Part shown: positions 7,828 to 23,030 of the stretch, one piece after another | How the letters are laid out: the number at the start of each line of letters is the position of its first letter | How positions within the stretch are numbered: position 1 is the stretch's first letter | From: a bacterium | Lineage (GTDB): Bacteria; SAR324; XYD2-FULL-50-16 | Assembly: GCA_024275165.1 (NCBI GenBank) | Contig: JAJRZQ010000012.1 | Coordinates: 124,001 to 188,000, forward strand | Direction: 5' to 3' | DNA: 64,000 nucleotides | Position numbers and translations under genes: made by a program | Notes under the pieces: model-generated | What the model was told of the DNA's origin: nothing | The model's input: the letters and a program-made list of their open reading frames with translations, nothing else | Databases searched by the model: none

Positions 7828-8311
7828 CCTCCTTTGGGTAGGGCTTTTCTTATTTGCCTCCAATGCAAAGGCAGAGTATCGGGCTTATTTGGTGGAGGTC
7901 TACGACCATATTTTGCAGAAAAAATGGGACGCGGCGAGCGGCTTTGATCCGCAACAATATGTTGCTACCCATGGGGGCGGGAACCGTTTATCGGTGCTTT
8001 TAAAGGCCACTTGGAATTGTTACGGGGATACCGGGCAGTTTCGCCCCGCCTGCCCTATGCCGGAACCCAAAGACCCTAAATTTAAGGTGGGGGACCGGGT
8101 TAAGATCGCTTTAGAAAAACACCTGACCTTTGGTTGGAAGGGAACCGTAGAGATCGCTCTGTGGCGGCAAGACCTTAAAAGTAATGTCTATGGGGTGCGT
8201 TTTGGCGAGCGTAAGCAAATGTATGGCCGCTATTTTGAGTTTAACTTAGAGCCCCTGGCAGACGCAAGTGGCGACATTAATGGGGAAAAGGTTCCCGAAC
8301 CGACCCAGTAG
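7808..8311 (+). CDS. Secreted protein of unknown function
   Basis: A 167-residue product with a clear Sec signal peptide (MRKKYLSLLWVGLFLFASNAKA, cleavage after about residue 22), so probably periplasmic. The mature part contains two cysteines (WNCYG and PACPMP) that could form a disulfide, and a beta-rich segment around KVGDRVKIALEKHLTFGWKG. I recognise no family. It overlaps the previous gene by 20 bases and ends in TAG just before ubiE, so it is probably cotranscribed. Confidence 0.7.
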   Translation: MRKKYLSLLWVGLFLFASNAKAEYRAYLVEVYDHILQKKWDAASGFDPQQYVATHGGGNRLSVLLKATWNCYGDTGQFRPACPMPEPKDPKFKVGDRVKIALEKHLTFGWKGTVEIALWRQDLKSNVYGVRFGERKQMYGRYFEFNLEPLADASGDINGEKVPEPTQ

Positions 8312-8318
8312 GAAGCAA

Positions 8319-9035
8319 ATGAGTTATCAAATGCCCGATGGGGCGGAAAAATATGAATTTGTACAGAGCCGATTTTCCGCGATTGCTCAAAAGTACGACC
8401 TCTTTAATGATTTAATCACCCAAGGCTTTCACCGCCATTGGAAAAACTTGGTGGTGCAAAAAACAGGTTTGGCCCCGGGAGACCAGGCCTTGGATATTTG
8501 TTGCGGCACCGGGGATATTACGGAACGGTTGGCCAAAGCGGTGGGGAGCAAAGGCAAGGCGATTGGGCTGGATTTTTCCTTTGGCATGTTGGAGGTGGCT
8601 CGTTCGAGAAAAGGACTGAGCAAGACCCCTTTGGTGCAGGGGGACGCGATGAACCTCCCCTTCGCCTCAGAGACTTTCGACGCCTTGACGGTGGGATATG
8701 GTTTGCGGAATTTGGTTGATTTATCCCAGGGTCTAGAGGAGGTTTACCGTGTTTTAAAGCCTGGTGGGCGCTTTGTTTGCCTAGATTTGGGCAAGGTGAC
8801 CTTGCCGGTGGTCAAACAGGTTTTTCAGTTTTATTTTTTTCAAGTGGTGCCGCGCATTGGCAAGATTTTATATCCGAAAGAAGACATGTTTGATTATTTC
8901 CCTCAATCGAGTGTCGATTATCCGGGGCCGGAAAGCCTAAAAAAGATGTTGGAAAAGGCGGGGTTTCGTCAGGTGGAATATCAAAGCTATCATTTTGGGG
9001 GGTCGGTAATTCACCGGGCGGTGAAACTTAAATAA
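8319..9035 (+). CDS. ubiE: UbiE/MenG quinone-biosynthesis methyltransferase
   Basis: SAM-dependent C-methyltransferase acting on demethylmenaquinone or a ubiquinone precursor. The start at 8319 is chosen because AGGA precedes it by 6 bases and the product begins MSYQMPDGAEKYEFVQSRFS, as in the family. The SAM-binding motif ALDICCGTGDIT and the downstream GYGLRNL and RVLKPGGRFVCLDLGK blocks are typical. Length is 238 residues. Which quinone is made cannot be decided from this window. Confidence 0.92.
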   Translation: MSYQMPDGAEKYEFVQSRFSAIAQKYDLFNDLITQGFHRHWKNLVVQKTGLAPGDQALDICCGTGDITERLAKAVGSKGKAIGLDFSFGMLEVARSRKGLSKTPLVQGDAMNLPFASETFDALTVGYGLRNLVDLSQGLEEVYRVLKPGGRFVCLDLGKVTLPVVKQVFQFYFFQVVPRIGKILYPKEDMFDYFPQSSVDYPGPESLKKMLEKAGFRQVEYQSYHFGGSVIHRAVKLK

Positions 9036-9036
9036 A

Positions 9037-9247
9037 GGAAACTCTGAAAAACGCGGAGTTTCCCAGCAAGGCAGGAATGCCTTGCCAAATCAAAAAGTGG
9101 TACTTATTGATTCGCGTTGAGGTTGTGGATTTTATTCACAGCCGAAAAGACGGAAAAACTTGACGCGCCCCCAGGGCTATAATCAGCCCGAAGGGTACGA
9201 ACCTACCGCTTGAACAAGCGGTAGGCAAGGAGTTTTTCAGAGGTTCC
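9037..9247 (+). mobile_element. 211-bp MITE-like inverted-repeat element, copy 1
   Basis: Near-identical in sequence and identical in length to 22820-23030. Ends are 16-bp inverted repeats differing at one base (left GGAAACTCTGAAAAAC, right complement GGAACCTCTGAAAAAC), flanked by TAAA on both sides (9033-9036 and 9248-9251), a likely target-site duplication. There is no coding capacity. Inside are several hairpins: GGAAACTC/GAGTTTCC at the left end, GCAAGGCA/TGCCTTGC, GGTTGTG/CACAGCC, and CTACCGCTTG/CAAGCGGTAG near the right end. It lies between the convergent ends of ubiE and the TPR gene and could also end transcription. Confidence 0.8.
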
Positions 9248-9339
9248 TAAAGAGGGCTTGCCCCTGCGCTGGGTCGAGGGGATCGGTTGCGTCGCTGAAT
9301 TTAGTTGAGTTGGTAGCTGAGCGGGCAAAAGAGGGGGAA

Positions 9340-21489: not shown

Positions 21490-22776
21490 TTAGCGTTGAC
21501 TGATGGGGACAAAGGGCCTCTCGGTGGCGCCGGTGTAAATCTGCCTGGGGCGGCCGATTTTTGTGGCAGGGCTTTCGATCATCTCTTTCCAGTGGGCGAT
21601 CCAACCGGGGAGCCTGCCAATGGCAAAGAGTACGGTAAAAAACTTGGTGGGAAACCCCATGGCCTTGTATAGAATGCCGGAATAAAAATCCACATTGGGG
21701 TAGAGTTTTCGTTCGATAAAGTAAGGGTCGGACAGAGCTACTTCCTCAAGCTTTTTGGCGATCTCCAAAAGAGGATCATTGACCCCTAATCTTTCTAAGA
21801 CTTGATCGGCTGTTTTTTTGATGATTCTGGCCCGGGGATCGAAGTTTTTATAAACCCGATGCCCAAAGCCATAGAGGCGAAAATTATCTTTTTTATCCTT
21901 GGCCCGCGCTACGAACTGATCTACATTCCCCCCGGCAGCATGAATGGCTTCGAGCATTTCTAAGACCTGCTGGTTGGCTCCACCGTGGAGCGGCCCCCAC
22001 AGGGCGCATACCCCAGCGGCAACAGAAGCGAAGAGGTTGGCATGGGAAGAGCCCACGATGCGCACCGTTGAGGTCGAGCAGTTTTGCTCGTGATCGAGGT
22101 GGAGAATAAAAAGCTGGTCTAGGGCCTTTTCCACAATGGGATCAATCTCGTAATCCTCAGTGGGCATGGAAAACATCATGTTTAAAAAGTTGGCGGCGTA
22201 ACCGAGTTTATTTTGCGGGTAGACCTTGGGCTGGCCTACGCTTTTTTTATAGGCGTAGGCCGCGATGGTGGGCATTTTGGCAATGAGCCGATGGATCGCG
22301 ATTTCGACCTCTCTCGGGTCCCAGGGGTCGCCGGAGTCTTCATAAAAGGTGGAAAGGGCGCTGACAACGGAGCTGAGGGTCGCCATGGGGTGCGCCGTGT
22401 GGGGCCAGGCATCCCAATATTTTTTAATATCCTCGCGAATCATGGTGTGATGGGTGATGTTGCGCTCCCAATCTTTATATTGGGGGAGGGTCGGCAATTC
22501 ACCGTAGATGGAGAGATAAGAGGCTTCCAAAAAATTGGAATGTTCGCAAAGCTGTTCAATGGGGTAACCGCGGTAGCGTAAAATACCCTTTTCTCCATCA
22601 AGATAGGTGATGGCGCTGCTGCAACTTCCGGTATTGCCGAAGCCGTTATCTAGAGTGATGGCGCCGGTTTGGCCGCGTAATTTGGAAATATCAATTCCCA
22701 CCTCGTTTTCCGTTCCCTTGACTAGGGGTAACTCGACTTCTTTGCCGGAGAGGGTCAGCTTGGCGGATTCACTCAT
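21490..22776 (-). CDS. gltA: Citrate synthase
   Basis: Condenses oxaloacetate and acetyl-CoA, the entry step of the TCA cycle. The 428-residue length fits the hexameric type II bacterial enzyme. Active-site residues are in GPLHGGANQQV (His), GFGHRVYKNFDPRA (His, Arg) and PNVDFYSG (Asp). An AAGGAG motif lies just upstream of the ATG. The promoter region is only about 40 bases before it meets the second 211-bp element, so that element may affect expression. Confidence 0.95.
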   Translation of the reverse strand: MSESAKLTLSGKEVELPLVKGTENEVGIDISKLRGQTGAITLDNGFGNTGSCSSAITYLDGEKGILRYRGYPIEQLCEHSNFLEASYLSIYGELPTLPQYKDWERNITHHTMIREDIKKYWDAWPHTAHPMATLSSVVSALSTFYEDSGDPWDPREVEIAIHRLIAKMPTIAAYAYKKSVGQPKVYPQNKLGYAANFLNMMFSMPTEDYEIDPIVEKALDQLFILHLDHEQNCSTSTVRIVGSSHANLFASVAAGVCALWGPLHGGANQQVLEMLEAIHAAGGNVDQFVARAKDKKDNFRLYGFGHRVYKNFDPRARIIKKTADQVLERLGVNDPLLEIAKKLEEVALSDPYFIERKLYPNVDFYSGILYKAMGFPTKFFTVLFAIGRLPGWIAHWKEMIESPATKIGRPRQIYTGATERPFVPISQR

Positions 22777-22819: not shown

Positions 22820-23030
22820 GGAAACTCTGAAAAACGCGGAGTTTCCTGGCAAGGCAGGGATGCCTTGCCAAATCAAAAAGTGTAACTTATTGATTTTCAT
22901 TGAGGTTGTTGGTTTTATTCACAACCGAAAAGACTGAAAAACTCGACGCGCCCCAAGGGCTATACTCAGCCCGAAGGGCACGAGCCTACCGCTTGAACAA
23001 GCGGTAGGCAGGGAGTTTTTCAGAGGTTTC
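22820..23030 (+). mobile_element. 211-bp MITE-like inverted-repeat element, copy 2
   Basis: Same orientation and exactly the same length as 9037-9247. The 16-bp end repeats here differ at two bases, and the flanks are TTTA on the left and TTGA on the right, an imperfect target duplication. The internal hairpins are kept, and one stem has changed on both arms compared with copy 1 (GGTTGT/ACAACC here). It sits between the divergent starts of gltA and the ferredoxin gene, where an insertion can separate or supply promoters. Confidence 0.8.

Follow-up and report, generated by a model that had tools for sequence, protein, structure and literature searches.

A new MITE family with nested hairpins, best placed with the IS5 group, in an uncultured SAR324 lineage

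A 211-bp element and its copies in one genome

The window, i.e. the whole 64-kb stretch of DNA analysed here, spans positions 124001-188000 of contig 47 in a 2.69-Mb genome of 47 contigs, the sole member of its genus among the 58 genomes that we searched. It carries two 211-bp copies of one element (Table 1), which form the only direct-repeat family of at least 60 bp found in the window; the equal length and the coordinates given in the initial annotation both hold. Copy 1 directly follows an ORF for a ubiE/COQ5-type methyltransferase (8268-9035), whose stop codon lies within the left TAAA, and copy 2 lies upstream of a minus-strand citrate synthase ORF (21490-22776), 43 bp from its start. An Rfam search of the window recognised a 6S RNA (RF00013, 85 bits, at 2745-2919) and nothing else, the element itself matching no family.

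The perfect TAAA duplication reported around copy 1 is there, and the flanks of copy 2 (TTTA/TTGA) match at three of four bases. The 16-bp terminal inverted repeats are likewise present, but they match imperfectly when read directly: 15/16 in copy 1, where GGAAACTCTGAAAAAC stands against the complement of GTTTTTCAGAGGTTCC, and 14/16 in copy 2. As annotated, the element does not code, the largest ORF overlapping copy 1 being 41 aa. Both copies fold far better than shuffled sequences (z of -8.8 and -9.9), into a predicted series of hairpins in which the arms echo the ends of the element: the 3' arm of H1 resembles the right end, and the resulting repeats would give rise to the 27-bp forms described below; a stretch of the left end recurs in the 5' arm of H5. 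The last hairpin (CTACCGCTTG/CAAGCGGTAG), lying within the H5 loop, is identical in the two copies, as had been noted.

Table 1. Positions of the element, its ends and its predicted hairpins in the window
Feature	Position	Strand	Remarks
Left target duplication TAAA, copy 1	9033-9036	.	read in the sequence
MITE copy 1, 211-bp form	9037-9247	+	91% identical to copy 2; perfect 4-bp duplication
Left terminal inverted repeat GGAAACTCTGAAAAAC	9037-9052	+	157 such ends genome-wide
Hairpin H1	9037-9063 (arms 9037-9044 / 9056-9063)	+	predicted fold
Hairpin H2	9066-9085 (arms 9066-9073 / 9078-9085)	+	predicted fold
Hairpin H3 (AATCAA .. TTGATT)	9088-9112	+	sequence well conserved across subfamilies
Hairpin H4 (GGTTGTG/CACAGCC)	9121-9143	+	stem of the earlier compensatory claim
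Long stem H5	9151-9240 (arms 9151-9161 / 9230-9240)	+	predicted fold
H5 loop	9162-9229	+	holds the ~60 bp (H6, H7) missing from the 151-bp form
Right terminal inverted repeat, GGAACCTCTGAAAAAC on the minus strand	9232-9247	-	sequence and end search
Right target duplication TAAA, copy 1	9248-9251	.	read in the sequence
MITE copy 2, 211-bp form	22820-23030	+	flanks TTTA/TTGA

The further copies that the initial annotation looked for exist in abundance, a search of the genome with the element and its ends finding about a hundred. The left end occurs at 157 sites with up to two mismatches, compared with 3 for a reversed control pattern; the first 100 places of each end search are listed, and our inventory is therefore a lower bound. 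A query with copy 1 gave at least 41 matches, all but one of them close to full length (40 of 127 candidates scored), whilst profile searches covering 300 kb of the genome gave at least 108 separate places at E<=0.01, of which 55 measure at least 195 bp, 20 are 140-194 bp, 10 are 60-139 bp and 23 are shorter. We worked with 54 long copies: 53 full-length ones of the 211-bp form, all aligned and 209-213 bp long, plus one that measures 175 bp. Flanking duplications are common as well: 29 of the 54 have a perfect 4-bp target duplication (TTAA 12, TAAA 5, TTAG 4, TATA 3, TTCA 2, CTTA 2, TTTA 1), against 13% between the flanks of different copies, and 25 lack a perfect one. The description as a non-autonomous inverted-repeat element is thus well supported by copy number, duplications, lack of coding and related IS5-type ends. 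A 1.7-kb element that two ends seemed to delimit (C17:57839-59507) was rejected, as it consists of two separate elements.

Could such a repeat be a product of chance or of assembly? The assembly is in 47 contigs, two of which (C10 and C20) share a flank together with sequence inside one copy; however, each copy has different flanks, duplications are present and the reversed-pattern controls gave 0-3 sites, so we put the probability of an artefact close to nil. The stretch shared by the end of L038 (C10:5148-5307) and the start of L056 (C20:1-369) could be a sign either of the repeat breaking the assembly or of strain mixture.

As far as we have searched, this high-copy IS5-group MITE family is restricted to one uncultured lineage. 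The element was found in 1 of 58 genomes, its own, with no match in the 57 others (9 of them from the same family), and end-like sites at up to one mismatch number 144 in its own genome versus 0-4 in each of those 57. Blastn against plasmids and phages returned no match to the element, and the 22-base left-end pattern was not found in viral contigs. The sole outside match of that pattern, in a Sumerlaeota MAG, was discarded: the rest of the element is missing there.

Gene context, taken from crude ORF calls, was available for 48 of the 54 long copies, six having been dropped for short flanks. An ORF spans the element in 2 of the 48. Classified by the closest ORFs, 14 are flanked by converging genes, 11 by diverging genes and 22 by genes of the same direction (16 antisense and 6 sense), and one has no ORF on one side. 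One ORF adjoining a copy encodes a tandem protein repeat (SQDCRA..QDP.LCQ; L060:1660-1920). A promoter-like match near each window copy falls outside the element. Within it, a TATAAT lies in GGGCTATAATCAGCCC (window ~9174-9189), inside H6 and the extra 60 bp, and copies with T at position 125 have TTGACG 12 bases upstream, a spacing below that of an ordinary sigma-70 promoter.

Size forms and deletion remnants

Fourteen copies, five of them young, three older and the remaining six belonging to a divergent second subfamily, measure 146-152 bp and have H1-H5 but not the pair of hairpins located within the last stem. The 151-bp element looks like the older form, with the 211-bp form being 151 bp plus an insert of ~60 bp in that stem. 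The second subfamily (L147:1501-1650 and L148-L152; C13:16173, C16:97115, C30:47626, C16:63820, C16:187854 and C47:236922) has the same ends, a similar length and hairpin order, and divergent sequence; its H4 stem has another sequence that still pairs, and in two copies a pair of H5 has changed on both sides, from C-G to G-C.

Smaller forms of 57, 44 and 27 bp also occur, some with duplications, and their sizes follow from the architecture of the long ones. The 57-bp form corresponds to 211-154, a deletion across GGCA; the 44-bp form to 151-107, a deletion across CTGAAAAAC (the 151-bp copy tested has no other exact direct repeats of 8 bases); and the 27-bp form to 211-184, a deletion across CGGAGTTTCC/CAGAGGTTCC. 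Predicted deletion products and observed forms differ at 0-7 positions. Because the element consists of nested palindromes, its arms would double as short direct repeats, and deletion between these would leave the 57-, 44- and 27-bp remnants. Nested palindromes may in this way predict the sizes of the remnants that a MITE leaves.

Might the 27-bp form instead have been moved as a unit by the transposase, rather than being left behind by deletion? It keeps both true ends, and of the 15 that we typed and list (a few more degenerate ones were set aside) nine are flanked by a perfect 4-bp duplication, and their sites differ. Against this, the junction varies (CGGAGTTTCC, CGGAGGTTCC or CAGAGGTTCC), as expected of separate exchanges between two 10-bp near repeats, the position-16 variants of the 27-bp forms mirror those of different long copies, and two ends inside 27 bp would leave little room for paired-end binding. 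We consider such movement distinctly unlikely; the varied junctions favour repeated, separate deletions.

Conservation of the hairpin plan

The initial annotation took H4 as a case of compensatory change between the window copies (GGTTGTG/CACAGCC versus GGTTGT/ACAACC) and, from this, suggested that a folded RNA or cruciform is selected. There is no such change: copy 1 has GGTTGTG/CACAGCC, with a T-G wobble and one change on the 3' arm, and copy 2 has GGTTGTT/CACAACC, with a T-C mismatch and one change on the 5' arm, i.e. one-sided changes in two different pairs. The lesson is one of caution, as differences between two copies should not be read as RNA selection.

Nor do the 53 recent 211-bp copies support selection on the fold. 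Their pairing (92.9%) and covariation (0.049) are those of shuffles (92.9% and 0.049), double-changed cells number 4 versus 5.1 in shuffles, and mutual information among copies gives no support to RNA selection in resident copies. In the register seen in copy 1, H4 is paired in only 73.6% of cells across these copies; as its register differs among copies, we excluded it from the tally of rare changes and from the 14-copy structure discussed below. Rare stem changes (in at most 6% of copies) comprise 25 that keep a wobble pair, 20 that break pairing and 30 transversions, with no wobble preference; a large excess of G-U pairs, our first impression from the alignment fold, was due to a handful of common variants and disappeared once rare changes were counted. 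Per site, rare changes are only a little less frequent in stems (0.018) than elsewhere (0.024), and common variants (at least 20%) avoid stems, falling at 2 of 108 paired versus 14 of 75 unpaired sites with H4 excluded (Fisher p ~1e-4).

Across divergent relatives the picture is another one. In the 14 divergent 151-bp copies, again with H4 excluded, 86.2% of cells pair versus 82.6% in shuffles, and there are 25 double-changed cells versus 14.0 (reached in 0/500 shuffles), a test that still contains shared ancestry; pairs that show a double change number 10, an unremarkable count (172/500 shuffles). What survives of the suggestion of a selected fold is hence confined to this level: the two-copy argument was wrong and the recent copies show no compensatory change beyond chance, but the hairpin plan is kept across the 14 relatives, with an excess of double changes. 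From this we conclude that the plan is old and has been kept in the spreading lineage, and that resident copies decay freely. Conservation of the fold here splits into two levels, with hairpins kept by the lineage that spreads and not by the copies that reside.

A structured RNA or regulatory repeat, such as a terminator or mRNA-stability element, selected in each resident copy and with mobility as an incidental property, would be one way to account for the very strong predicted folds, the hairpin plan shared by divergent relatives and the avoidance of stems by common variants. However, rare stem changes keep pairing no more than expected, the covariation of the recent copies equals that of shuffles, copies between same-direction genes are antisense more often than sense in the crude ORF calls, terminator-like matches (one around copy 1, none around copy 2) are no more numerous than in shuffles, and Rfam holds no matching family; we regard this explanation as very improbable.

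How, then, would a fold be kept in a lineage of mobile copies that decay freely once resident? Mobility may favour folded copies, or the hairpins might be repaired by template switching. We can speculate further, whilst thinking it rather unlikely, that the nested hairpins are a working part of the transposition cycle, such that only copies able to form H1-H5 on one strand moved, and that the same palindromes shed the family down to 27-bp scars. If true, hairpin-dependent movement would account for a fold that persists long-term, with double changes, in the spreading lineage and is lost in residents.

The putative transposase and known relatives

Which transposase could have moved the element? 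The transposase gene with the same ends, for which the initial annotation advised a search, did not turn up: searches with four Pfam families and with both ends gave neither an intact transposase nor one bounded by these ends (five weak matches to PF01609, three to PF05598 and none to PF13586 or PF13546 in the genome), and none of the orphan MITE ends that we opened bounds a transposase. An intact IS5 transposase between such ends was not found in the genome, an assembly in 47 contigs that could miss a collapsed IS. What the genome does contain is a broken IS5-group transposase on contig C29 (a PF05598 match, L162:1360 onward; the remnant spans L162:1274-1811, that is C29 near 166982-167519), with MITE copies nearby. 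Over its N-terminal 112 residues it shares 46-50% identity with plasmid IS5 transposases; the middle ~150 residues are lost and a short C-terminal piece follows. Its left end, GGAGGCTCTGAAAA, 86 bp upstream of the transposase, agrees with the MITE end at 12 of its first 14 bases, differs from it at 4 of 16, and is preceded by CTAA (CTAA-GGAGGCTCTGAAAAG); a right end of this remnant was not found. A second IS5 fragment, at C46, was rejected as a partner, having other ends (GAGACCTCTGCA); this broken IS5-type element (L082:1334-2223) lies at the contig end near MITE pieces, and close to it is what looks by eye like two tRNA genes.

We fetched eight plasmid IS5 relatives and sought the ends of the seven with an annotated transposase. 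Six have a candidate GGA-type end pair (e.g. GGAGTCTCTGA, GGATGCTCTGA and GGAACATCTGA) with a 4-bp CTAA, TTAG or CTAG duplication, the pair being top-ranked in five and second-ranked in one (L168); L166 has none. The MITE ends are of the GGAnnCTCTGA type, a pattern exact in L165 and L170 and present as near variants in the other relatives. A 4-bp YTAR duplication is usual for the IS5 group, and the candidates in six of the seven relatives are of this type. For the MITE the target length of 4 is clear, but YTAR describes only 16 of its 29 perfect duplications, an argument against the rule being strict.

Given the similar ends and target size, and the C29 remnant with its similar left end, the MITE appears best placed with the IS5 group. 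Spread by an IS5-type transposase is most likely, and we infer that the C29 IS or a lost sister of it moved the MITE. An IS5-group transposase acting in trans would bind the 16-bp ends (GGAAMCTCTGAAAAAC), and a DDE-type reaction would move the element and leave 4-bp target duplications, with insertion into mostly intergenic sites, often adjoining stop codons; an older form of ~151 bp with five hairpins would have given rise to the common young form by gaining ~60 bp inside the last stem. Overall, we give a probability of about 90% to the reading of the 211-bp piece as a non-autonomous MITE moved in trans by an IS5-group transposase, with an older form of ~151 bp and deletion remnants.

As bacterial mobile DNA the element is of an ordinary kind, and what is new is the family, that of an IS5-group MITE built of nested hairpins. 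Our literature search found no report of the family; the papers listed for the end sequences as text (20 of 39) are unrelated by title. IS5-group elements on plasmids of Acidithiobacillus caldus, Rhodanobacter and Variovorax, and the 'ISPa41 family' in Pseudomonas, have ends of GGA plus CTCTGA or a near variant, as does the MITE (an ISPa41-type copy has GGAATCTCCGA ends), and duplications of CTAA, TTAG or CTAG, of the same 4-bp size; unlike the MITE, they carry a transposase gene of ~320 codons, and only the ends are in common. The ERIC and RUP repeats, as described in passages of one review, are short palindromic MITEs and mostly intergenic, like the element described here, from which they are set apart by description only: ERIC measures 127 bp, and RUP is tied to IS630-Spn1 and TA targets (PMC2229807).

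Within the reviewed material, the closest parallels are Correia/NEMIS and the QMITEs (PMC2229807, PMC10969869), with both of which we compare by architecture only. Correia/NEMIS of Neisseria is a high-copy MITE of two main sizes, ~107 and 155 bp, which differ by a 50-bp internal piece; it forms stable RNA folds, and an IHF site and RNase III processing are reported for it in the passages concerned (PMC2229807). The present family is similar in its high copy number, two sizes, internal piece and stable folds, and differs in that the sizes are 151 and 211 bp and the internal piece, of ~60 bp, holds two hairpins. QMITE1 and QMITE2 of Coxiella burnetii reach 45 and 78 copies in one genome, QMITE1 ranging from 39 to 400 bp; many QMITE copies are truncated, the ends are conserved and small RNAs have been reported from them, according to the relevant passages (PMC10969869). 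With these elements the family shares its copy number, wide size range, truncated copies and conserved ends.
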